DNA from: Nannocystineae bacterium
GTDB taxonomy: Bacteria > Myxococcota_A > Polyangia > Haliangiales > Haliangiaceae
DNA length: 51,384 bases
Direction of reading: 5' to 3'
Assembly (NCBI GenBank): GCA_007133195.1
Contig: SLNH01000024.1
Location: forward strand, 1 to 51,384
Under the pieces are notes generated by a model. That model made no database searches. It saw only the letters and a list, made by a program, of their open reading frames with translations, and was not told the DNA's origin. A program made the position numbers and the translations under genes. Below are positions 7,937-23,607 of the stretch, piece by piece. Within the stretch, counting starts at the first letter, position 1. The number at the start of each line of letters is the position of its first letter.

Positions 7937-8514
7937 GGCGGTCCCGGGCGCGCCGGCTGCGGGGCGTCCGAGCGCTGCGCGAAATCGGGGGCGATGCGCC
8001 CTGCCCGCGTCGCCGAGCGGTGAGCTCGCCTGCCAGCTTCGATGTTCACGGCGACCTCTCCGGAGCTTACCGCATGTCGAGCCCGGCTTTCGAGCGAAGG
8101 TCACGGCTCGCTTTCGTCCCTTGCCTCGACGCCCGCGCTCGGTTTGCCGGCAGATGGGCGAACGACACCGGCTGCCGCGGGTAACCGGTGCCGACGGAGT
8201 ATCGTTGGGTCTCGCCGCAGCCACCTGAAGGGAGCGCGCGACGACCGAGCCAGGCATCGAGCCTCATGGAACGTCTCCATTGGGGTTCGACGTCCATATC
8301 TCCGAGCTGGCGACACCGTGACGGTGACCCACGTCAGGTGGGGTGCCCGGTGCGCCGGACCTCGCGCCTGGCGGGGGCCGCGCCGCAGGGGAGGCGGGAG
8401 TTGACGCGCGGCTCCGACGATGACTACATAGCCGCTTCACTCGAGTCGCTGTGGGGCGTGCATCGGTGGATTCATGAGCATCATCGCGGCCCCGCGCGCA
8501 GCCGCGGTTTCGGT
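7937..8514. other. 578-bp divergent intergenic region
   Basis: Lies between the tolC-like gene (minus) and the decahaem cytochrome gene (plus) and must hold promoters for both. Short frames here look like shadows. A plausible sigma70-type promoter for the cytochrome is at 8401-8430 and a small inverted repeat (CACCG-TGA-CGGTG) lies near 8315-8330. I see no RNA gene, and no clear promoter for the efflux operon. Confidence 0.6.
8401..8430 (+). promoter_or_regulatory. Candidate promoter of the decahaem cytochrome gene
   Basis: TTGACG (8401-8406) and TACATA (8425-8430) are separated by 18 bp and sit about 85 bp before the ATG at 8515. The -35 box is a 5/6 match to consensus; the -10 box is weak. 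Confidence 0.35.
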
Positions 8515-10806
8515 ATGAATCGACTATTGCCACTCGCCAGCCTCGCTCTCCCTCTAACCGGCGGATGCATCGAAGGGCCCGAGGGGGAGCCCGGAGAGCC
8601 CGGGGAGCCCGGGGAGCCGGGAGACCCCGGGGAGCCGGGAGAGCCCGGGGAGCCGGGAGAGCCGGGAGAGCCCGGAGAGCCCGGAGAGCCGGGCGTAGAC
8701 GCCGGCCCCCACGATCTCGCCGTGCCAAGCTTCACCCCGGCGACCATCGACAGCGTCGACGTCGACGGCGGCGAGGTGGAGGTCACGTTTACGATCGACG
8801 GCTACGACCGCGACGACGTCGACGTCGAGATCACGCTCGCGCGCTGGGTGCCCGAGGAGGATACTTGGCTGAATATGCTCATGCGTCCGCGCGCCCGTGA
8901 CACGGGCGCCGAGGTGATCCGAGCCGGAAACCTCCGCCTGCAGGGCGACGACGCCGTCACCGGCGGCGAGGACGGCACGTTCACCACGAAGATCAAAAGC
9001 CCCACGGCGGACTACGGCGGCCCCGGCCCGGTCGATTTCAGCGGCGGCGTCGTCTGGCGCCGAGATGGCGAAGATTCGGCCGCGCACTACTGCGGCGACG
9101 ACGCGGACTACTGCGAGTTCGTCCAATCGATCCTCGATCGCATCGCAGACCTCGGCTCGGGCTGGGATCCGGACGGGACCTATCGCGTGGGTGTGACGAG
9201 CCGCGACATCGGCATCGCCCGTTTCAACGCCATCGCGGACTTTGCGGGCGACGGGACGCTTTTGCCCTCGCGCACGGCCGACCACATGACCGAGTCGTCG
9301 TGCTCGAGCTGTCACGGCGAGCGCATCGAGCTGGGCGTCCACGGCAACCAACGCCACGACCCAGCCGTGTGCGTAAGCTGCCACAACGAGTTTACCTTCG
9401 ACGCGGCGAGCTCGGCCGCCGAGCCCGATGGCTGGGCTGCCATCGACGCCCAGTCGATGATCCACCGCCTTCACATGGGCATCGACGGCTACTCGGTCGA
9501 TGGCCGGGATTACAGCGACGTCCGCTTCCCCGACTGGACGTTCGGCCGCGGGGTGGGGCCGAAAAACTGCGTGTCCTGTCACCAGGAGGACGCCCCCGCC
9601 GACGAGGCCGCCTGGAACGTCGTGACCTTCGAGGCGTGCACGACCTGTCATATCGGCGACACACTCGAAGAGGCGATGCCGCACCTTCCGGACGACCATC
9701 CGAGCAATCCCGACTGCGGGCAGTGTCATACCCCTTCCTCGGACAGCTTCATTCCGTCGGCCGACGAGATCCACGGCGTGAGCGAGCGGCTCGGCGCGCT
9801 GGCCCGCGCCGACGACTACCAGGTTCACATCGCCGAAGTCAGCGGCGCCGTCGCCGGCCAGGAGCCGGAGGTCGTGTGGCAGGTCGTCGATTCCGCGGGC
9901 ACGGCCTACGACTTTTCCGAGATCACCGCCGAGGACTTTCACGTCGGCATCGGCTGGGGGCACGGTGACGATTGGATCAACGACGGCGTACCCTCGCGGG
10001 CGACCGGCGCCCGGGGCGATCCGTGGCCGCTCGACACCGCCGACGTCGATACCGTGTTCTCCGGCGACCAGGCGATAACCACTCTACCCGCACTGCCGCC
10101 CGAGGCCGCCGCGGGCCGCAATGGTTATGTCGCGATCTACCCCGACGGCCCAGGCATCGTCCACGACGAGGTCGAGACTCGGCCGAATACGGCGGTCGCG
10201 ACCATCACGCTCGGCGCCGATGTCGCCCAGGACCCGGAAAACGATCGCCGGCCGATCGTGAGCGCCGAGAACTGTCAGTCGTGCCACACGACCATCGAAC
10301 GGCACGGGACGGTTGCAGGCGACGACATCGCCGGCTGTGTTGTTTGCCATAACGCCGGCTCGCTAAGCCGCGACGACAGCGCGATGCAGGGCAGCGTCGA
10401 CTTCATGTACCTTCTGCACGCCGTGCACAGCCTCGGCGACGGTAAGCGCGAGTTCTTCGAGCGCCGCCGCGGCTTCGACGAGGGCGGCTACGGGTACGTC
10501 ACCCACGCCAACTCCTCGCTCGACTGCCAGTCGTGCCATGTGGGCGATAGCTACCGGACGCCGATCGATCCCGCGCACCGCCTCGGAATCATCGCCGACG
10601 ACGCCAAGGCCGCCTTCGAGGCCGGGACCGGCGTAAACTCTCCCCAGGCATCCACCTGCTATTCGTGCCATGAGACGGGCATCGACTCGGAGATCGACTC
10701 GTCCCTCAAGGCCCATATGAGCGTGCTGGGAGGCCATATGTTCGGCGAAGAGAGCCACGAGTCACTCCTCGAGCGCCACGAGGCGTGCGAGTTCTGTCAC
10801 GACTGA
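8515..10806 (+). CDS. Decahaem c-type cytochrome, OmcA/MtrC family, with collagen-like stalk
   Basis: Probable outer-surface lipoprotein for extracellular electron transfer, 763 aa. The sequence has exactly ten CXXCH motifs arranged five plus five (CSSCH, CVSCH, CVSCH, CTTCH, CGQCH; then CQSCH, CVVCH, CQSCH, CYSCH, CEFCH), with a haem-free beta-rich region between, matching the domain I-IV plan of OmcA/MtrC. Residues 1-18 are a signal ending in a lipobox-like LTGGC. Residues 21-59 are 13 Gly-X-Y triplets, nearly all GEP. The last haem motif is almost at the C-terminus. The ATG at 8515 is chosen because it starts the signal peptide. No MtrA-like or MtrB-like partner gene is in the window, so the trans-membrane electron route is not visible here. 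Family assignment is firm; physiological acceptor is unknown. Confidence 0.92.
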   Translation: MNRLLPLASLALPLTGGCIEGPEGEPGEPGEPGEPGDPGEPGEPGEPGEPGEPGEPGEPGVDAGPHDLAVPSFTPATIDSVDVDGGEVEVTFTIDGYDRDDVDVEITLARWVPEEDTWLNMLMRPRARDTGAEVIRAGNLRLQGDDAVTGGEDGTFTTKIKSPTADYGGPGPVDFSGGVVWRRDGEDSAAHYCGDDADYCEFVQSILDRIADLGSGWDPDGTYRVGVTSRDIGIARFNAIADFAGDGTLLPSRTADHMTESSCSSCHGERIELGVHGNQRHDPAVCVSCHNEFTFDAASSAAEPDGWAAIDAQSMIHRLHMGIDGYSVDGRDYSDVRFPDWTFGRGVGPKNCVSCHQEDAPADEAAWNVVTFEACTTCHIGDTLEEAMPHLPDDHPSNPDCGQCHTPSSDSFIPSADEIHGVSERLGALARADDYQVHIAEVSGAVAGQEPEVVWQVVDSAGTAYDFSEITAEDFHVGIGWGHGDDWINDGVPSRATGARGDPWPLDTADVDTVFSGDQAITTLPALPPEAAAGRNGYVAIYPDGPGIVHDEVETRPNTAVATITLGADVAQDPENDRRPIVSAENCQSCHTTIERHGTVAGDDIAGCVVCHNAGSLSRDDSAMQGSVDFMYLLHAVHSLGDGKREFFERRRGFDEGGYGYVTHANSSLDCQSCHVGDSYRTPIDPAHRLGIIADDAKAAFEAGTGVNSPQASTCYSCHETGIDSEIDSSLKAHMSVLGGHMFGEESHESLLERHEACEFCHD
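8575..8691 (+). repeat. Collagen-like (GEP)n coding repeat
   Basis: Thirteen in-frame 9-bp units encode GPE, four GEP, GDP and seven GEP. The DNA is a slippage-prone mixture of GGAGAGCCC and GGGGAGCCG units, so repeat number may vary between strains. It directly follows the lipidated Cys and probably forms a rigid stalk lifting the haem domains off the membrane. Confidence 0.9.
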
Positions 10807-13920: not shown

Positions 13921-15105
13921 TCAGTTGACGGGGGCGCCCTGGGCGACCCAGCGCATGACTTTCATGCGCTCCTCGTCGGTCATGTGGGTGCGGTTGGCGG
14001 GGGGCATGGTCTCTGACTCGACGCGGATGCCGATGCGGCGCGCGGTGTGCTCGATCTCGGCGGGACGCTCGAGGGTGAGGCCGTCGGGCGGGGCGGAAAA
14101 CAGCGGATCCGAGGGCGTCTCGCCGTGGCAGGTGGCGCATCGCTCGGACAGGATCATCTGGACCTCCTCGAACGGCACCGGCTCGGTTTCGGCCAGCGCG
14201 GGATCATCGATCGCCGACGGCGCGGGCCGATCCATGAGCGCGAGCGCGACGAGCAGGGCCAGGGACGCCGACGCGATGATCGCGGAGCGCCAGTAGGGGA
14301 AGTGAAAGCGGATATTCATGAAGTGGCGCACCAGGGCACCGCCGATCATGAGCGAAAACAGGATCGCCCAGTTCAGGTGGTGGCCGTAGGCGCTCGGGAA
14401 GTGGATGCTCACCATCGTGAAGATGAGCGGGAAGGTCATGTAGTTGTTGTGGATGGAGCGCTCCTTGGCGCGGAGCGAGAGCGCCCGGTCTTGCTCGCGG
14501 CCCTCTTTGGTGGCGGCCGTGAGCTCCACCTGGGAGGGGATGATCACCATCCACACGTTGCCGGTCATGAGGGTCCCCAAAAGGACGCCCACGTGAATGA
14601 ACGCGGCACGAGGGGCCAGGATTTCGGATAGCCCCCACGCCACGGCGACGAGCGCCGCGAGGCAGATCGCGCCGGCCAAGATGGGCCTGTGCCGGAGCGG
14701 GGAGCGCCAAAGCAGGTCGTAAAACACCCACCCGGCGATGAGCGTCCCGATTCCCACCGCGATCGCCGTCGTGTGCGCCACGTGGCCCTCGCCCGGGTTG
14801 ACGAGCCAGGCGCTCTCGCCCACGTAGTACACGACGATGAGGAGCAGGATCCCCGAGGCCCACGTCGACAGGTTTTGCCACATGAACCAGTGGACCTTGT
14901 CGGGCATTTGGCCCGGTTCGAGCAGCTTCTTTTCGATCTGGTAGTACGCCCCCGAGTGAAGGAGCCAGATCTCGCCGTCGATCCCCTCCTTTTTGACGAG
15001 GTTGCGATCGAGCCAGTTGAACAGGAGCGAATTGCCGATCCACATGATGCCGGCGATCACGTGAAACCAGCGGAGGAGCAGGTCGAGAAGCTCGCTTGCG
15101 CTCAT
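13921..15105 (-). CDS. puuD: Membrane urate oxidase with cytochrome c domain (PuuD family)
   Basis: Oxidises urate to 5-hydroxyisourate and passes electrons to its own haem instead of making H2O2. The protein has 394 aa, close to known PuuD length. Residues 1-290 form about eight membrane helices with the family signature HNNYMTFPLIFTMVSIHFP (219-237). Residues ~305-394 are a cytochrome c domain with C323-A-T-C326-H327 and probable axial Met367 (TMPPANRT). The ATG at 15105 has GAGGTGAGG just upstream. It lies 51 bp after the CcoP-like gene and is the last gene of a three-gene minus-strand operon beginning at 18080. The neighbouring HIU hydrolase, OHCU decarboxylase, allantoinase and allantoicase genes support urate as substrate. 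Confidence 0.93.
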   Translation of the reverse strand: MSASELLDLLLRWFHVIAGIMWIGNSLLFNWLDRNLVKKEGIDGEIWLLHSGAYYQIEKKLLEPGQMPDKVHWFMWQNLSTWASGILLLIVVYYVGESAWLVNPGEGHVAHTTAIAVGIGTLIAGWVFYDLLWRSPLRHRPILAGAICLAALVAVAWGLSEILAPRAAFIHVGVLLGTLMTGNVWMVIIPSQVELTAATKEGREQDRALSLRAKERSIHNNYMTFPLIFTMVSIHFPSAYGHHLNWAILFSLMIGGALVRHFMNIRFHFPYWRSAIIASASLALLVALALMDRPAPSAIDDPALAETEPVPFEEVQMILSERCATCHGETPSDPLFSAPPDGLTLERPAEIEHTARRIGIRVESETMPPANRTHMTDEERMKVMRWVAQGAPVN

Positions 15106-15156: not shown

Positions 15157-15681
15157 TTATCGAGACGCCTCCCCTTCGTCGCGTTCCTCGCGGATCGTGA
15201 GCAAGTAGGCCGTGATGTTCATGCAGGTGGCGGGGCCGAGGGAGCCCCAGGGGGGCATCCCATCTTCATTCCGCCCCTCGACGATGGTCGTGTAGATCTC
15301 CACGGGGGAGCTTTCTGTGATCCACTCGGTGCTGCGAAGGTTCGGGCCCACGTCGCCGCCTTCGCCGGCTGGCCCGTGGCAGCTCTCGCAGCTTCGCTCG
15401 TAGGCTTCCTCCCCGCTCTGCACGGCGAAGCGATCACCCGCGAGCTCGCGCAGCATCTCTTCGCTCACCATGGCGCCGTCGTCTAAGGCGGCCGCGCGCT
15501 CGGCGAAGTAGCGCTCGACCGAGCCCGGCGGCGTGGCGATGCCATACCAGAGCCAAAACACGAGCGCGGCGGCGAGCCCCGCGCCGAGCAGCCAGCCAAA
15601 GCCGGCGCCGAGGGGCCGATCGACGACCGGTATTCCGCCGAGCTTCGTCGTGTTGCCGTCGCGGCGGTCTGGGACGGTCAC
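15157..15681 (-). CDS. CcoP-like membrane-anchored mono-haem cytochrome c
   Basis: A 174-aa protein with one membrane helix (about residues 25-49) and a single c-type haem site, C98-E-S-C101-H102, with probable axial Met142 (GMPPWG). The N-terminal region before the helix (KLGGIPVVDRPL) and the following YFAE segment resemble CcoP of cbb3 oxidase, but true CcoP has two haems and is about 300 aa, so this is a half-size form. GTG start at 15681 overlaps the TGA of the CcoNO fusion (GTGA). Role inferred: electron carrier between PuuD's cytochrome domain and the fused CcoN/CcoO-like protein. Confidence 0.85.
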   Translation of the reverse strand: MTVPDRRDGNTTKLGGIPVVDRPLGAGFGWLLGAGLAAALVFWLWYGIATPPGSVERYFAERAAALDDGAMVSEEMLRELAGDRFAVQSGEEAYERSCESCHGPAGEGGDVGPNLRSTEWITESSPVEIYTTIVEGRNEDGMPPWGSLGPATCMNITAYLLTIREERDEGEASR

Positions 15682-18080
15682 GGCTCGTCCCCCAAATCGC
15701 CGCCATCGTAACCGTCGGGCGGCTGGTCGCCGTCGGCAGAGCCGGGAACCTGGCCCGCGCGGGCGCCTTCGCCGTCTTCGCCGTCTTTGCCGTCTTCGCC
15801 GGCTGGGAGCGGCTCGCGGCCGTCCTCCGTCGCCTGGCTTCGGCCGAGGCGGCGCAAATACGCCAAAAGCGCCACCATCTCGCTGTCGGTATCGACGGAC
15901 GCGCCGCGCGCGCTCTCGAGCTCGGCGGCAATCTCTTCTCCCTCGCGGAGCGCCGCCTCCTCGGCCGCTTGGACATCATCCCTGTCGTAGGGCGCGCCGA
16001 GCGCCGCGAGCGCTCGGAGCTTGCGCGGAAGCGCGGCGAGGTCGGCGGCGCGATCCTCGAGGTGCCGGTACGAGGGCATCGGCGCGCCGGTCGTGGGCTG
16101 GGCATCGGCCACGTGCGCATGCAGCGCCGCGAGGTCGTGGCGCGCGCCCACCCGCGCGAGGTCGGGGCCTACGCGCCGCGTTCCCCATAGCGCCGGGCGC
16201 TCGTCGGGATCGACCGCGAGGGTCGGCGAGCCGTAGCGCGCCACCTCCGCCAGGGTCGGCCGGACGTTCTGGGTGTGGCAGCTCGCGCAGCCCTCGCCGC
16301 GATACACGTCGCGTCCGGCCAGCTCGAGCGGCGTGTAGGGCGCCTGTGCCTCCGGCGGCTCGGGCGGGGCCGCCGACACCGCCGCGGTTTGCACGATTCC
16401 GCCCCCCAGCGCGGCGACGGCGACGAGGACGGTGAGCGCGGGGGCGTGGCCCTCGAGCCGGGCGTGAAATCCGGCCTCGCCGGGCGCTCGCGCTGCGGCC
16501 AAAAACACGGCCGTCACCACGCACGCGGCCAAAAACGCGCTGGCGAGCGCACCCAGCGGATCGGCGCGCTCCGCGAGGGCGAAGAGCGCGACGACGACAG
16601 CGGCCGCCAGCACCGGCGGGGACAGAAGGAGCTCGCGCAGGCCCGCTTCTCGGGTGTCGCCGGCATCGGCCGGATCGATCTCGGTGTCTCGCTCCCCCGA
16701 AGCGCCGCACCACAGCGTGCGGGCCAGATTCCAAATCAAAATGACGAAGCCCAATACGTACAGCCCGCCGCCGGTGACGCGGACCAGGTAGGGCAGGCGC
16801 AGCGCCTCGATCGTCTCGGACAGCTCGTAACGAAGCCCGCCGGCGGCGTCCTGGCTCGCCAGCATCGCGCCCTGCGACGCCCCGGCCAGCCAGGTGGCCC
16901 CGACGTAAAGAGTGAGCCCGACGACGGCGAGGTAAAGGTGAGCGCGCGCCGCCGCCGGCGAGTGCAAGCCCGTCCCGCACGCGCGCGGCACGAGCCAGTA
17001 GAGCAGGGCGGCCGCCGAAAATCCGGTGAAGCCGAGTGAGCCCAGGTGCGAGCGCCCGTGCATCCAGTCGGTGTAGCCGGTGACGAGCGATAGGCCGCCG
17101 AAACCGAGAAGCACCGCCTCGAGCGCCGCCAGCCCGAGACACACGAGCGCCGCGGCCCAAAACTGCAAGACGGGATCGCCGAGCAGGCGCGAGCCGGCGC
17201 CGCGCATCGTGCCGAAACCGCTCGCGACCGCCGCCGCGGCCGGGATCCACACGAGCAGGGCGACGGCGATGCCGAGAGTTTTCAGCCAGTCGGGCACGGG
17301 CGCGTTTAGGAGTCGCTCGGGGGCGGCCCACCCGGCGACGAGCACGAAGCTCCAAAAGTGCAGGATGGCCAACCGATGCGAAAACAGCGGGCGCGCCGCC
17401 GCTTGCGGCACCACGAAGTACATGAGGCCGAGGAGCGGGGCGGTGAGCAAAAAGCTGTCCAGCCCGCGCTCGCGCCAGGCGTCCACGACCGCCGAGCTCG
17501 CTCCCCCGAAGACGGGATAACTGTCCATCGCGCCCACCGGCACGGCCAAGAGGCCGGCGAGCTTCACGCCCGCCACGCCCACGATCCCGGCGATGAAAAA
17601 CCACACCGACACGTAAAGGCGAGCGCGGCCGCGCCGCCGCACCATCGCGAAGAAGTTCGCCGCGAACGAAAGCCATACGAGCGCCAGCGCGAGCTCGATC
17701 GGCCAGGCCAACAGCGCGTCGCCCGCGCCCCCGCCGCGTCCCAAGACGAGGGCGATCGCGCCCAGGGCCACGATCGCCTGCCAGCCCCAAAAGTGTGCGG
17801 CGCCGAGCCTCGGCCAGGGGAGCGAGGTCGCCAAAAGCCGCTGGCTGGCGAAATACACGCCGGCGAACACCACGTTGGCGGCGAAGGCGAACACGGCCAG
17901 GTGGATGTGGAGCGGTCGCAGGCGCGCGAACGACAGCTCCGGCGAAAGCTGCGCGTTGGGCGCGAGGAGCTGGACTGCCACGAACAGGCCGGCGGCCATG
18001 CCGAGGGCGCCCCAAACCAGGGCCGCCGCCGCAAACCGGCGGGCGACGCGATCGGTATAGACGAGGGGCGCGCTGTTCAA
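15678..18080 (-). CDS. CcoN-CcoO fusion lacking the oxygen-reduction site
   Basis: An 800-aa membrane protein: residues ~5-470 are CcoN-like (cbb3 oxidase subunit I, about 12 helices), ~475-560 add further helices, ~575-745 are CcoO-like with C598-A-S-C601-H602 and Met in PMPSY, and the tail is Asp/Gly-rich. The CcoN part aligns without gaps to Pseudomonas CcoN as I remember it, at a constant offset of two. Low-spin haem b ligands are kept (His58, His345). CuB ligands are Arg205, Glu255 and Arg256 instead of His; the cross-linked Tyr is Ala249; the haem b3 ligand is Arg343. It should therefore transfer electrons but not reduce O2. The TTG at 18080 has GGAG 6 nt upstream and fits family length; GTG at 18137 is the alternative. 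First gene of the operon with the CcoP-like gene and puuD. Confidence 0.88.
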   Translation of the reverse strand: MNSAPLVYTDRVARRFAAAALVWGALGMAAGLFVAVQLLAPNAQLSPELSFARLRPLHIHLAVFAFAANVVFAGVYFASQRLLATSLPWPRLGAAHFWGWQAIVALGAIALVLGRGGGAGDALLAWPIELALALVWLSFAANFFAMVRRRGRARLYVSVWFFIAGIVGVAGVKLAGLLAVPVGAMDSYPVFGGASSAVVDAWRERGLDSFLLTAPLLGLMYFVVPQAAARPLFSHRLAILHFWSFVLVAGWAAPERLLNAPVPDWLKTLGIAVALLVWIPAAAAVASGFGTMRGAGSRLLGDPVLQFWAAALVCLGLAALEAVLLGFGGLSLVTGYTDWMHGRSHLGSLGFTGFSAAALLYWLVPRACGTGLHSPAAARAHLYLAVVGLTLYVGATWLAGASQGAMLASQDAAGGLRYELSETIEALRLPYLVRVTGGGLYVLGFVILIWNLARTLWCGASGERDTEIDPADAGDTREAGLRELLLSPPVLAAAVVVALFALAERADPLGALASAFLAACVVTAVFLAAARAPGEAGFHARLEGHAPALTVLVAVAALGGGIVQTAAVSAAPPEPPEAQAPYTPLELAGRDVYRGEGCASCHTQNVRPTLAEVARYGSPTLAVDPDERPALWGTRRVGPDLARVGARHDLAALHAHVADAQPTTGAPMPSYRHLEDRAADLAALPRKLRALAALGAPYDRDDVQAAEEAALREGEEIAAELESARGASVDTDSEMVALLAYLRRLGRSQATEDGREPLPAGEDGKDGEDGEGARAGQVPGSADGDQPPDGYDGGDLGDEP
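15771..15797 (-). repeat. Three tandem 9-bp units in the acidic tail of the CcoNO fusion
   Basis: On the plus strand GCCGTCTTC-GCCGTCTTT-GCCGTCTTC, encoding an EDG-KDG-EDG run in the C-terminal tail. Low-complexity coding repeat; probably disordered. Confidence 0.65.
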
Positions 18081-18114: not shown

Positions 18115-18180
18115 CCAGCGCAGGGCGCCGACCTCACAGCCTCGCGCCGGCGGTCGGCCAGGCCGGCTCGGCCGGCCCGC

Positions 18181-18287: not shown

Positions 18288-19769
18288 ATGATATTCGACA
18301 GTATTCTCGGCACAGTCGGGAACACGCCCACGGTGAGGCTCGAGCGCCTCGAGCCCGAAGGCGTTCAGCTTTACGCGAAGGTCGAGGCGCTAAACCCCCT
18401 CGGCTCGGTCAAAGACCGGCTCGCGCTCGGCGTCATCGAGCACGCGGAGCGCGCGGGCCATCTCGAGCCCGGACAGACCGTCGTGGAGGCGACGAGCGGC
18501 AACACCGGGATCGGCTTGGCGATGGTGTGTGCTCGCAAGGGTTACCCCCTCGTGGTGACCATGGCGGAGAACTTCAGCATCGAGCGCCGCCGCCTCTTGC
18601 GGTTTCTCGGCGCCAAGGTGGTGCTCACGCCTGCCGCGCTCAAGGCGACGGGGATGCTGGCGAAGGCCAAGGAGCTGGCCGACGCTCACGGCTGGTTTTT
18701 GTGCCGGCAGTTCGAAAACGATGCCAACGCCGAGATGCACATGCGCACCACGGGCCCCGAGATCCTGCGGGACTTCGCGGATCGATCCCTCGACTACTGG
18801 GTGACCGGGTTCGGCACGGGCGGGACGCTCAAGGGCGTTGCTTCCGTTTTGCGCGAGCGGAGCCCGAAAACGCGCATCGTGGTATGCGAGCCCGACAACG
18901 CCGCGATTCTGGCGAGCGGCGTCGACCAAAAGCGCGAGGCGGACGGTTCCCCGGCGGAGCGGCATCCCAGCTTCCGCCCGCACCTGATGCAGGGGTGGAC
19001 GCCGGACTTCATCCCGAAGCTCACCGCCGACGCCGCCGCGGCAGGAGCCATCGACGAGTTTTTGGCTGTGAGCGGGGCCGACGCCATGGCCAAGTGCAGG
19101 GAGCTCGCGCAGAAGGAGGGTGTCTTCGTCGGCATTTCGGCGGGGGCCACGCTCGCGGGCGCGCTCGAGGTCGCGCGCCGCGCGCCCGAAGGGGCCAACG
19201 TGCTGTGCATGCTTCCCGATACGGGCGAACGCTACCTGAGCACGCCCTTGTTCGAAGACGTCCCCGTGGACATGACCCCGGAAGAGGACGCCATCGCGAA
19301 ATCGACCCCGAACTATCGTTTCGACGTCAAGCTCCCATCGCCGGCGGCAGCGGGCGGGGAGGCGCCGGAGCTCGACGCGAGCGCGGAGCGGTACTTCGAC
19401 GAAGCCGTGGCCGACACAGATCAGCCGTTGACCGTGTTCGCGCTCGAGTGGTGCGAATTCTGCTGGTCGGTGCGCAAGCTGTTCGGCAAGCTCGGCGCCC
19501 GATATCGGTCGGTGGACCTCGACTCCGTCGCGTATCAAGAGGGCGATTTCGGCGGGAAGATCCGCGCGGTCCTCAAGCAGCGTGAAGGCCTTCCCACCGT
19601 GCCGCAGGTCTACGTGGGCGGGCGCCACATCGGCGGCGCCACCGAGACCTTCGAGGCGTACAAAAGCGGCGAGCTCCAGCGGCTATTGAGCGAGAGCGGC
19701 GTCGCCTACGATGACAGAGCCGACTTCGATCCGTACTCGCTGCTACCGGGCTGGCTGCACCCGCGCTGA
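18288..19769 (+). CDS. Cysteine synthase fused to a C-terminal glutaredoxin
   Basis: PLP enzyme of the O-acetylserine sulfhydrylase / cystathionine beta-synthase family (residues 1-~325) joined to a glutaredoxin domain (~380-470), 493 aa. PLP Lys42 lies in NPLGSVKDR; the asparagine loop is TSGNTGIGLA (69-78); the phosphate-binding loop is GFGTGGTLKG (174-183). The glutaredoxin domain has C389-E-F-C392, a TVPQVYVGG segment with cis-Pro (437-445) and GG near 449. Expected to make cysteine from an acetylated or phosphorylated serine and sulfide, with the glutaredoxin possibly delivering sulfur or keeping thiols reduced; the exact acceptor is not determined. ATG 18288 (or 18291) starts the conserved N-terminus. 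It splits the urate region, divergent from ccoNO and convergent with the HIU hydrolase. Confidence 0.88.
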   Translation: MIFDSILGTVGNTPTVRLERLEPEGVQLYAKVEALNPLGSVKDRLALGVIEHAERAGHLEPGQTVVEATSGNTGIGLAMVCARKGYPLVVTMAENFSIERRRLLRFLGAKVVLTPAALKATGMLAKAKELADAHGWFLCRQFENDANAEMHMRTTGPEILRDFADRSLDYWVTGFGTGGTLKGVASVLRERSPKTRIVVCEPDNAAILASGVDQKREADGSPAERHPSFRPHLMQGWTPDFIPKLTADAAAAGAIDEFLAVSGADAMAKCRELAQKEGVFVGISAGATLAGALEVARRAPEGANVLCMLPDTGERYLSTPLFEDVPVDMTPEEDAIAKSTPNYRFDVKLPSPAAAGGEAPELDASAERYFDEAVADTDQPLTVFALEWCEFCWSVRKLFGKLGARYRSVDLDSVAYQEGDFGGKIRAVLKQREGLPTVPQVYVGGRHIGGATETFEAYKSGELQRLLSESGVAYDDRADFDPYSLLPGWLHPR

Positions 19770-19784
19770 AAGGCTGCTTTCAGC
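19765..19784. terminator. Bidirectional hairpin at a convergent junction
   Basis: GCTGAAAG-gctg-CTTTCAGC is a perfect 8-bp stem with a 4-nt loop. Each arm contains a stop codon: TGA at 19767-19769 for the plus-strand gene and TGA (complement of 19780-19782) for the HIU hydrolase. There is no T-tract, so intrinsic termination is uncertain; it may stabilise both 3' ends. Confidence 0.5.
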
Positions 19785-20163
19785 TCCCTCGGTACGTGGT
19801 GTAGCCGAACGGCGAGAGCAAAAGCGGCACGTGGTAATGCTCTCCCGGGTCGTCCACGGAGAACGCGAGCGTCACGAACGGGTGAAAGCAGCTCTCGCCG
19901 CGGGCCTCGAAGTAGGGGCCGGTCTCGAAGTGGAGCCTGTAGACGCCCGAGCCGGGAATGTGGCCGCCGTCGAGAAGCGAGCGGCAGCGCCCGTCGTCGT
20001 CGGTTTTCCCGCGCGCGATCTCCGCGAACGCCTCGCCCTTCTGCGCTTCGAGAATCACGGTGACGCCGGCGGCGGGGCGCCCCCGGGAGGTGTCGAGAAT
20101 GTGCGTGGTGATTCCGCTCATGGCGCAGGTGTACCAAAGATCGGCACGGAGCGCGGCGCTCAT
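19780..20163 (-). CDS. uraH: 5-hydroxyisourate hydrolase (transthyretin-like)
   Basis: Hydrolyses 5-hydroxyisourate, the product of PuuD, to OHCU. The protein carries the family hallmarks: an N-terminal HILDTSRGRPA, a central Arg (VYRLHFETGPYF) and the C-terminal tetrapeptide YRGS that defines HIU hydrolases and separates them from vertebrate transthyretin. The ATG at 20163 overlaps the stop of the upstream allantoicase gene (ATGA), giving 127 aa; the more family-typical start is ATG 20121 (113 aa, MSGITTHILD). Neither has a good Shine-Dalgarno, so coupled translation is likely. Last gene of the allantoinase operon. Confidence 0.92.
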   Translation of the reverse strand: MSAALRADLWYTCAMSGITTHILDTSRGRPAAGVTVILEAQKGEAFAEIARGKTDDDGRCRSLLDGGHIPGSGVYRLHFETGPYFEARGESCFHPFVTLAFSVDDPGEHYHVPLLLSPFGYTTYRGS

Positions 20164-21662
20164 TCCCCGAGCAGGTGCTTGTCGAGGCGCAGGTGGGTGA
20201 TCTTGCGCTGCTCCTCGGCGGCGACGCGGATCTCGGTGTCGCGATCGTTTCGCATGCGCGCGCGCAAGGTGGCGAGGATCTCCTCGGGAGCCTTGCCGGT
20301 GGCGCAAATGAGGAAGGTAAAGCCGAACGCTTGTTCGTAGCGCTCGTTTTCCTCGGCGAGCGCCGCGCGAACCTCGTCGCCGGCCTCGCCCACGCGGGCC
20401 TGTTCGCCCTTGGACCACGCCGACGCGGCGCGCTCCCCGATCCGCGGGTGGGCGGCGATCGCCTCGAGCCATGCCTTTTCGCCGAGTGAGCGCCACACGT
20501 GGTCGGCCACCTTGCGCAGCTCGGCCAGGTCGGAAAACGGCCGCGCCGCGGCGATCTCGTCGGCGAAGGCGGTTTGCGCGCAACACGCGCGAATCGCCTC
20601 GGCGGCCTCGTGCTCCGGTGCGGCGTTGAAGCGCATGAGGGCGAGCGCGAGCCGCCGCGCGCGCTCGGTGCGCCCGTAAAGGCGCAGGCGGGCGAGGCCT
20701 CCGTCTGGGAACACGCGCAGTCGGGCGTGGGTCACGGGGCCGGCCGACAGTCTGACCTCCTCGTCGAAAAGGTGCCGGGTATCGGGCTCGAGATCGGACT
20801 CCAAAATCGGCTCGAACGGGATCGTGTCCCACGCGCTGGGGTCGGCGGGGGGCTCGGTGACGCTGGCCACCTCGAGCCGGCACGAGCCAGGCGCGTTGCC
20901 CTTGAAGTGGGACGTGTCGATCTCCGCGGCGCGAATTACCCCGGCGCGGCCGAGCGCCACGACCACCCAGTCGTGGCCGTCGTCGCGGCGCCGCTTGGTC
21001 TCCCAGCCGTCGCCCATGTTGCGCGCCGGCCGGGGCAAAAGCAGGTTTTGGCTGGCCCCGAAGAACATATCGCTCTGCGCAACCGCGCGCCCGCCCAGGC
21101 GCGCGCCGGCGAGATCCACATCGCCCCCGGCGGCGTCCACGCGGTTCCAATCGGGGACCGCCTCGCCGCGGATGCGCAGCCGGGCGACGCCGCCGTCGGG
21201 GATGATGGTGAGCCGGATGTGCGTGACGGGCGTGCCCTCCTGCACCGGGATCTCGTTCGGGCAGTCGCCGCGAAGGTCGGTCTCGGCGACGAGGGGGATC
21301 CACGGCGTAGCGGGATCGGTGAGGGTGGCGACCGATGGCGTGCCGGGCAGGGTGCACGCGTCGATGCGGCACCGCTCCGGGTAGTTGCCGCGAAAGTGCG
21401 TCGTGTCGACGACGACGCCGCGGACGATCCCGCGGGCGCCGAGGCGGATGATGCACACGTCCTCCCCGGGCACCCGGCGACGGCGGGTCTCCCAGCCGTC
21501 CATCCACTTGCCGCGATCCGTGTACTCGTCGGGCAGAAACTCGGGCGCGCTCGCGTGAAGGAGCCGCTCTTTGGGCGCGAAGAAGTCGTCGTTGGCGTAG
21601 ACGACGACGCCGCCCAGGGCCTCGGAGGCCAGGTCGATGAGGTGGGAGAAGGCCGTTGTCAT
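20160..21662 (-). CDS. alc-uraD: Allantoicase fused to OHCU decarboxylase
   Basis: A 500-aa bifunctional protein. Residues ~10-335 are allantoicase (allantoate to ureidoglycolate plus urea), with the two internal repeats visible as GKWMDGWETRRRR (51-63) / RNMGDGWETKRRR (214-226) and DTTHFRGNYP (86-95) / DTSHFKGNAP (249-258). Residues ~340-500 are OHCU decarboxylase (OHCU to S-allantoin), with catalytic HPRIGE (405-410) and FLICATGK (450-457). The two activities are non-consecutive: allantoinase acts between them. ATG start at 21662. It sits 82 bp after the allantoinase gene and overlaps the HIU hydrolase start by 4 bp. Confidence 0.93.
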   Translation of the reverse strand: MTTAFSHLIDLASEALGGVVVYANDDFFAPKERLLHASAPEFLPDEYTDRGKWMDGWETRRRRVPGEDVCIIRLGARGIVRGVVVDTTHFRGNYPERCRIDACTLPGTPSVATLTDPATPWIPLVAETDLRGDCPNEIPVQEGTPVTHIRLTIIPDGGVARLRIRGEAVPDWNRVDAAGGDVDLAGARLGGRAVAQSDMFFGASQNLLLPRPARNMGDGWETKRRRDDGHDWVVVALGRAGVIRAAEIDTSHFKGNAPGSCRLEVASVTEPPADPSAWDTIPFEPILESDLEPDTRHLFDEEVRLSAGPVTHARLRVFPDGGLARLRLYGRTERARRLALALMRFNAAPEHEAAEAIRACCAQTAFADEIAAARPFSDLAELRKVADHVWRSLGEKAWLEAIAAHPRIGERAASAWSKGEQARVGEAGDEVRAALAEENERYEQAFGFTFLICATGKAPEEILATLRARMRNDRDTEIRVAAEEQRKITHLRLDKHLLGE

Positions 21663-21744
21663 AGCTGGTGCTGTCCTCTTCCGTCGCCGCGTGACGTGCG
21701 GCGCCGGGGCCCGGTGTCAGGCGGGCTCGAAATCGGGCCGGGTT

Positions 21745-23091
21745 TCAGGCCCGGACCTGTCCCGTGGGCTCGGCCACGACCTGTCCGCGGTCGTAGACGA
21801 GCTCCCCGCGCAAAAACGTCTTTTGCACGGCGCCGCGGAGCCGCTTGCCCGAGTAGGGGGTGAGCGGGTGGCGGTGAAACAGGCGGGTGGGATCGACGTC
21901 GAGCTCCGCGTCGGGGTCGAAGAACACCACGTCGGCGTCGTATCCCGGCGCGATGGCCCCCTTACCGGACAGGCCGGCGAGCTTTGCCGGCGCGCGCGCC
22001 ATCCACCGGGCGAGGGACTCGAGCTCGTAACCCCGGCTTCGCGCCTCGGTCCAGGTGACGGGCAGGGACAGCTGAACGGACGAGATGCCGCCCCACGCGC
22101 ACAGAAAGTCCCCGGCCTTGAGCTCTTTGAGCGACGGCACGCACGGCGAGTGATCGGAGACCACCATGTCGAGGAGCCCGCGCTCGAGATAGGCCCAAAG
22201 CTGGTCTCGATTTTCGCGTTCGCGGATCGGCGGCGCGCACTTGTACTCCGTGGCGCCGCGCGGGATGTCCTCGGCCGCCAGGGTGAGGTAGTGCGGACAG
22301 GTCTCCGCGGTGATCCGGGCGCCGGAGGCCCGCGCTCGTTCGATGCTCTCGGCGGCGCCGGCGGCGGACACGTGCACGATGTGGACACGCCCGCCGGTTT
22401 CGGCTGCGAGCTCGCTCAAAAGCGCCGCCGCCTCCGTCTCGGCGCTCGCAGGCCGAGTTTGCAAAAACGCGGAAAACTCCCGCGGATCGCGCGCGTCGGC
22501 CGCGTTCTCGGCGCCCGCGACCTCCCCCGGGTGCTCCGCGTGGACGAGCAGCGGCGCGCCCGTCGGCGCGAGGATCTCGAGGGCGCGTCGCACCTCATCG
22601 GTCGAGACCGCGGGAAACTCGTCCACGCCGGAGTCGATGATGAAGCACTTGAAGCCGCACACACCCTCGCGAAGCAGGGGTTCGATCTGGTCTTCGTTCC
22701 CAGGGACGACGCCGCCCCAAAATGCCACGTCCACGAAGCACTGCGGCGAAGCGGCGTTACGCTTTTGCCGCAACCCCTCCAAGGTGGTGGTCGGGGGGAT
22801 GGCGTTTAGCGGCATGTCCACGAGCGTGGTGATGCCGCCCGCCGCCGCGGCGCGCGTGGCCGTCGAAAACCCCTCCCAGTCGCTGCGCCCTGGCTCGTTG
22901 ACGTGTACGTGGCTGTCGACCAGTCCCGGCATCACCACGGCGTCGCCGGCGTCCACGATCGCGCTGCCGGGCGGCGTGTCGTCGTAGGCGGTGATGGCTT
23001 CGATGCGCCCGTCGCGCACGTGAAGCGCGGCGGGCTCCGTGCCGGTCTCGGTGATTACGCGGCGACCGCGGATGACTTTCATCGGCGACAT
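21745..23091 (-). CDS. allB: Allantoinase
   Basis: Zinc-dependent cyclic amidohydrolase opening allantoin to allantoate, 448 aa. Metal-binding residues are visible: DSHVHVNEPGR (H61, H63), the carboxylated Lys148 in GFKCFII, His in LLVHAEHP (~184) and HIVHVSAA (~240), and Asp in SDHSPC (~315). Overall length and these motifs fit allantoinase rather than dihydroorotase, and the neighbours (allantoicase, OHCU decarboxylase, HIU hydrolase) settle it. ATG 23091 has GGGGGA about 7 nt upstream; 23082 and 23115 are alternative in-frame ATGs. First gene of the operon allB, alc-uraD, uraH. Confidence 0.93.
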   Translation of the reverse strand: MSPMKVIRGRRVITETGTEPAALHVRDGRIEAITAYDDTPPGSAIVDAGDAVVMPGLVDSHVHVNEPGRSDWEGFSTATRAAAAGGITTLVDMPLNAIPPTTTLEGLRQKRNAASPQCFVDVAFWGGVVPGNEDQIEPLLREGVCGFKCFIIDSGVDEFPAVSTDEVRRALEILAPTGAPLLVHAEHPGEVAGAENAADARDPREFSAFLQTRPASAETEAAALLSELAAETGGRVHIVHVSAAGAAESIERARASGARITAETCPHYLTLAAEDIPRGATEYKCAPPIRERENRDQLWAYLERGLLDMVVSDHSPCVPSLKELKAGDFLCAWGGISSVQLSLPVTWTEARSRGYELESLARWMARAPAKLAGLSGKGAIAPGYDADVVFFDPDAELDVDPTRLFHRHPLTPYSGKRLRGAVQKTFLRGELVYDRGQVVAEPTGQVRA

Positions 23092-23607
23092 GAGGCTTCC
23101 CCCGGTTGGATGCATTCGGTGGGCTGGAGCCGGCGCGCGGTCGCGGCGCTCCTGCCTGCAGAGGGTTCGCCCAGCCTCCGGAGGCGCCTCGGCTGGCGGG
23201 GCAGGGCGAGCTGGGCGAGCAGCGCTCGGTATTGCGCGCGAGCCGGCGTCTCCCGCGCGATTACTCCGCTCGGTCGCCGCCGCGCGCCTGGCGGTCGCGG
23301 TGGCGCGGCTTCGCGTACGACCCCCGGCATTCGCTGCGCCCTGGTCAGTTCGTCGGGGGAGTTTTCCGTGTTACGGCACCCGCCGCCGGCGGGGCGGGGG
23401 CGCGCTAACTCGGGTGCGCCGTGTTCATGGGCCCCGAGCTCATCGAGCCCGCATGGCATGGGCGTTTGAGCCTAGACAAATCCCATCCGGTTGTCGAGCC
23501 GGGCTCAAGAATATCGCGTTCACGTATGACGACCCGGACCACCCGAGCTCGGCCCAGGCGCGGGCGCGCGCTGGCGGCGCCGTAAGCAGCGCGTCGCCGC
23601 CGCCAGT
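23092..23607. other. 516-bp intergenic region
   Basis: Lies upstream of the allantoinase operon and downstream of the DUF2203 gene, both on the minus strand, so it should hold the operon promoter. I see no convincing promoter, operator palindrome, RNA gene or coding frame in it. Confidence 0.5.

Follow-up and report, generated by a model that had tools for sequence, protein, structure and literature searches.

A fused cbb3 oxidase subunit lacking its oxygen-reduction ligands lies beside a membrane urate oxidase gene in a myxobacterial genome

What can a cbb3 oxidase subunit still do once the residues of its oxygen-reducing centre have been replaced? The question is raised by a fused ccoN-ccoO gene of a Nannocystineae bacterium (assembly GCA_007133195.1, contig SLNH01000024.1), whose product we call CcoNO*. 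The whole stretch of 51,384 nucleotides that was analysed is referred to as the window. An initial annotation, made from the sequence alone, had described a CcoN-CcoO fusion in which the O2-reduction ligands were replaced, and had proposed that it carries electrons between c haems and quinone or another carrier. We examined the ligands, the extent of change in the protein, its descent and its gene neighbourhood.

Frame, fold and ligands of the fused subunit

The sole open frame of the interval runs from 18080 to 15678 on the minus strand, a strand that the initial annotation had left unstated. Its likeliest start is the TTG at 18080, which has GGAG ahead of it; an alternative GTG start at 18137 would give a protein of 819 aa. 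Pfam matches were obtained to COX1 for the CcoN domain (5.5e-55) and to FixO for the CcoO domain (4.5e-45). A phmmer search paired residues 6-465 with residues 7-468 of P. stutzeri CcoN (3MK7 chain A) and the sequence from residue 539 on with CcoO, so that the similarity to CcoN and CcoO is full-length. The alignment with Pseudomonas CcoN had been described as gap-free at an offset of two; the offset of +2 was indeed constant over about residues 47-369, with one-residue gaps outside that range. The AlphaFold model (pLDDT 81, pTM 0.86) had the CcoN fold when compared with 3MK7, with a TM-score of 0.96 (by target length) and an rmsd of 1.5 angstrom, although the presence of canonical homologues in its alignment means that the model alone cannot prove that the fold has survived. 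Judged by its sequence, CcoNO* is a cbb3 homologue by descent, yet it lacks the defining features of an oxidase.

Table 1. Coordinates in the window of the genes and key residues discussed (P.s., P. stutzeri numbering)
Feature	Position	Strand	Remarks
CcoN-CcoO fusion gene (CcoNO*)	15678..18080	minus	800 aa, catalytic centre lost
CcoP-like mono-haem cytochrome c, one predicted membrane anchor	15157..15681	minus	start overlaps CcoNO* stop by 4 bases
puuD, membrane urate oxidase	13921..15105	minus	Urate_ox_N and cytochrome c domains
HIU hydrolase (transthyretin family), step after urate oxidation	19780..20166	minus	
Allantoicase repeats fused to OHCU decarboxylase, single frame	20160..21662	minus	
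Amidohydrolase, probable allantoinase	21745..23115	minus	Amidohydro_1; allantoinase by context
His58 (P.s. His60), low-spin haem b ligand, kept	17907..17909	minus	alignment
Arg205, replaces CuB ligand His207 (P.s.)	17466..17468	minus	alignment
Ala249, replaces cross-linked Tyr251 (P.s.)	17334..17336	minus	alignment
Glu255-Arg256, replace CuB ligands His257-His258 (P.s.)	17313..17318	minus	alignment
Arg343, replaces haem b3 ligand His345 (P.s.)	17052..17054	minus	alignment
His345 (P.s. His347), low-spin haem b ligand, kept	17046..17048	minus	alignment
CXXCH 598-602, CcoO haem c attachment, kept	16275..16289	minus	
Met668, CcoO haem c axial ligand, kept	16077..16079	minus	

The numbering of the CuB ligands as His207, His257 and His258 of P. 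stutzeri was taken from PMC3578206 and agrees with the offset of two. At seven key columns CcoNO* alone read H-R-A-E-R-R-H, and all other aligned CcoN homologues read H-H-Y-H-H-H-H (well over 100 homologue rows, some of which are the same gene repeated). The alignment bears out the replaced residues and the retained haem b and CcoO ligands of the initial annotation. A homologue with the same five substitutions was found neither among the aligned homologues nor in 318 genomes of the class. All five catalytic residues are changed and all six electron-entry ligands are kept (the two haem b histidines, the Cys, Cys and His of CXXCH, and Met668); by a naive figure, the chance of such a split of 11 positions at random is 1 in 462. 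Two residues remain of the six in the histidine sextet, which has been termed the signature of the haem-copper oxidase superfamily (PMC3413370). The haem b3 histidine and metal B ligands that mark a nitric oxide reductase or NO dismutase are replaced as well, by Arg343 and by Arg205, Glu255 and Arg256. We know of no case in which arginine substitutes for histidine as a haem iron ligand, which makes a normal haem b3-CuB centre in CcoNO* very unlikely as far as the sequence can tell.

The initial annotation had raised the possibility that the ligands were displaced elsewhere in the protein. CcoNO* has three new histidines, His60, His235 and His341, but in our judgement they could not restore the centre. 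Neither TM VI nor the TM VII CuB positions contain a new His or Cys, and His341, four residues ahead of His345, would by inferred helix geometry lie roughly on the haem b side of the helix, facing away from b3. A centre rebuilt from these histidines or other residues, or an artefact of misassembly in a metagenome-like genome, would be compatible with the new histidines and with a single copy, without orthologue, in a 496-contig assembly. Both are highly improbable: besides the positions of the new histidines, the contig G+C and the codon signal are even, the canonical active-site motif is absent from the other frames of the interval, and CcoG was not found.

Extent of the change and maintenance of the frame

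According to the initial annotation, the loss was precise and confined to the catalytic site in an otherwise well-conserved protein. This did not hold. Of the 218 positions with 95% identity or more across 59 homologues, CcoNO* differs at 77, whereas each of the 59 homologues, given the same treatment, differs at a median of 1 and a maximum of 9. Invariant positions were lost more often in TM VI-IX, the helices around the binuclear centre (41/72), than in the other helices (18/78; Fisher p = 2.6e-5), and the CcoO part was the least changed (8/40). Thus, although the catalytic site is the focus of the loss, the change extends beyond it. The residues lost include, in P. stutzeri numbers, the Glu122/Glu125 pair, which we take to belong to a Ca2+ site, Trp203, and Ser240, Asn289 and Tyr317, which presumably belong to the K-type proton channel. 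Under these assignments, the channel positions of CcoNO* read Ala238, Ser287 and Leu315 and the Ca2+-site positions Gly120 and Leu123; Thr291 and Glu321 are kept in the same comparison. Nine charges are new (Lys173, Asp200, Arg203, Glu204, Arg205, Asp208, Glu255, Arg256 and Arg343), all at helix positions that are uncharged in 59 of 59 homologues. These lie in the helices around the old centre and, besides the conserved Glu321, are nearly balanced, with five positive and four negative. An ion-pair network may fill the emptied cavity.

In the tree, CcoNO* fell inside the myxobacterial fused-CcoNO clade (support 0.88-0.95, the placement of so long a branch being uncertain), suggesting that the canonical state is ancestral. 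Its terminal branch measures 2.64 substitutions per site compared to a median of 0.31. No close orthologue turned up in the genomes searched (35 from the order, 318 from the class and 379 from the phylum) or in viral contigs; plasmid ccoN genes among the 40 matches listed were 33-38% identical to CcoNO*. The extremely long branch, the 77 lost invariant positions, the failure to find ccoG and ccoS and the want of a conserved orthologue are what one would expect of a relic, that is, of a cbb3 oxidase whose function disappeared together with ccoG and which is now decaying, with puuD nearby only incidentally. However, all 800 codons are open, and the codon-position G+C is uniform along the gene (0.71-0.85 / 0.50-0.61 / 0.80-0.91) and resembles that of other genes in the window. 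When a relative was allowed to drift without constraint in simulation, a median of 7 stops (minimum 2; 200 runs) had already arisen by 70% identity. Collectively, these results favour a maintained protein. The losses are also non-random, sparing the electron-transfer ligands, and the gene overlaps an intact ccoP. We therefore consider a decaying relic unlikely, though it remains a serious rival. The initial annotation had preferred selection for another function over decay; the loss of the catalytic ligands with retention of the electron-transfer ligands and the open frame does argue against simple decay, but not by way of a confined loss. This pattern argues for a retained electron-transfer or structural role.

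The puuD operon and the oxidase assembly genes

The fused gene, the CcoP-like gene and puuD are tightly spaced and co-directional, with puuD beginning 51 bases beyond the CcoP-like gene on the same strand. This operon was missed by the initial annotation. Relatives also have a mono-haem gene after ccoNO, to which the CcoP-like gene is homologous. PuuD is 46-55% identical to six myxobacterial relatives and keeps the residues that are invariant among those six; the protein is intact in its membrane domain, CXXCH and Met, and genes for HIUase and OHCU decarboxylase are nearby. A single-sequence structure model of PuuD was too poor for use (pLDDT 49). In four PuuD relatives (L174, L181, L184 and L186) the match to the window PuuD stops before the cytochrome c part and the frames are longer; their C-terminal domains may differ. 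The urate-pathway genes at 19780-23115 share the strand of CcoNO*, and between them and CcoNO* lies a divergent gene (18318-19769, plus strand) for a cysteine synthase-type PLP enzyme fused to a glutaredoxin domain. Elsewhere in the window, 8188-10806 (plus strand) encodes a predicted outer-membrane multihaem cytochrome with an MtrC/MtrF-like domain and about ten CXXCH motifs by eye; it also bears collagen-like GEP repeats, and a part in extracellular electron transfer is possible.

The gene order in relatives is ccoNO-ccoP-ccoG, and here puuD occupies the place of ccoG. All nine relatives tested have ccoG, which in the eight compared lies 868-1162 bases past ccoNO on the same strand. In this genome (496 contigs, estimated 99.2% complete), no TIGR02745 match to CcoG was found, which fragmentation could partly explain, and no FixS match to CcoS, a short family that is easily missed. 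A second CcoN or CcoO was not detected at E 1e-30; the genome encodes two caa3-type oxidases and one further COX1/COX2 pair. The joint absence of the catalytic ligands, of the Ca2+-site and K-channel residues (as assigned) and of the copper-assembly gene supports the view that CcoNO* would not be a terminal oxidase.

If not oxygen reduction, the operon with PuuD points to urate oxidation as the process that CcoNO* may serve. PuuD is genetically required for urate degradation, and the lack of a catalase response led to the suggestion that its electrons travel via cytochrome c, the acceptor being unknown (PMC4562309). No CcoNO- or CcoP-like gene was present in the stretches read of other puuD loci (30 short, 20 longer), which suggests that PuuD has no general need of such a partner, and no puuD was present at the retrieved ccoNO loci. 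The operon also bears on the quinone partner named by the initial annotation. A quinol:cytochrome c oxidoreductase, in which electrons pass between quinone and the c haems through the single haem b, would find its minimal set of ligands in the haem b and c ligands kept. Yet no quinone site was found in CcoNO*, and we know of none in any cbb3 CcoN, which also counts against this route. In addition, the operon belongs to a cytochrome c urate oxidase, and the high-potential c haems are ill-matched to quinone reduction. Quinone thus found no support as a partner, being energetically a poor match to a high-potential c-type chain, and we regard this version as quite improbable.

A possible relay or dock for PuuD

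With moderate confidence, we propose from these sequence comparisons that CcoNO* is a non-catalytic cbb3 remnant, known from one genome, that was recruited to serve PuuD as an electron relay or dock. Several findings count for a relay or dock: the change of all five catalytic residues with the keeping of six electron-transfer ligands; the centring of the changes on TM VI-IX, with the CcoO part least changed; the nine near-balanced charges around the old centre; the stop/start overlap with ccoP and the closeness of puuD, both intact; the position of puuD in the ccoG place, with CcoG and CcoS not found; the caa3-type oxidases and the COX1/COX2 pair as possible acceptors; the survival of the open frame and its codon signal despite a very long branch; and the requirement for PuuD in urate degradation, with electron transfer through cytochrome c suggested (PMC4562309). 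Two count against it, namely the restriction to a single genome without an orthologue sharing the changes, and the other puuD loci, which lack a CcoNO/CcoP-like gene.

In such an arrangement, a complete cbb3 module (CcoN-CcoO fusion and mono-haem CcoP) would have lost its oxygen-reducing centre and been recruited as the membrane partner of PuuD. PuuD would oxidise urate, and electrons would move from its periplasmic cytochrome c to the haems of CcoP and CcoO in the docked CcoNO*, from which soluble cytochrome c or a caa3-type oxidase of the genome may receive them. The CcoN part would be mainly a membrane scaffold, in which the single haem b would act as a side store or as a structural cofactor and the ion-pair network would occupy the old catalytic cavity. 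CcoO, CcoP and PuuD all retain their haem c ligands, and the haem b ligands are retained as well. More tentatively, and with less confidence, CcoNO*, CcoP and PuuD may together form a urate:cytochrome c respiratory complex with a low-spin haem b and c haems but without a binuclear centre, an oxidase turned dedicated conduit.

Alternatively, the CcoN part could be a structural, assembly or regulatory subunit of a PuuD complex, or its Arg/Glu-rich cavity could bind a ligand such as the urate anion, with haem b purely structural. A haem b without b3 would be an electron dead end, the new charges are grouped around the old cavity, and CcoNO* lies in the puuD operon, all of which suit a role outside electron transfer. 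On the other hand, every ligand of the electron-carrying haems is kept, which would be needless in a pure scaffold, and the fewest changes fall in the CcoO part. We consider a role of this kind rather unlikely; like the relic, it remains a serious rival to a relay or dock.

The nearest known systems are the fused CcoN-CcoO cbb3 oxidases of Myxococcota and Verrucomicrobiota (NCBIfam NF011053 PRK14485), which CcoNO* resembles in the fusion, the fold, the haem b and CcoO haem c ligands and the mono-haem CcoP directly downstream. It is only 37-43% identical to them, and it differs in having lost the CuB, haem b3, Tyr, Ca2+-site and K-channel residues and in having puuD in place of ccoG. The PuuD here is an intact homologue of that described in PMC4562309, with HIUase and OHCU decarboxylase genes near, but unlike the other puuD loci read it has CcoNO/CcoP-like neighbours. 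Superfamily members with changed active-site residues are also known: putative NO dismutases alter catalytic-site residues singly, among other changes (PMC3413370), and Nitrospina CcoN has an altered CuB neighbourhood (PMC3578206). By the papers' descriptions, these changes affect single residues at or near the centre, whereas in CcoNO* the Tyr is gone together with four of the six signature histidines. In the literature searched, which gave partial coverage and no proof of priority, we found no haem-copper oxidase in which the entire catalytic set is missing and the electron-entry half preserved. If the proposed role is correct, CcoNO* would offer a natural test of the capabilities that the low-spin half of an oxidase has by itself, and PuuD could gain a first concrete partner.
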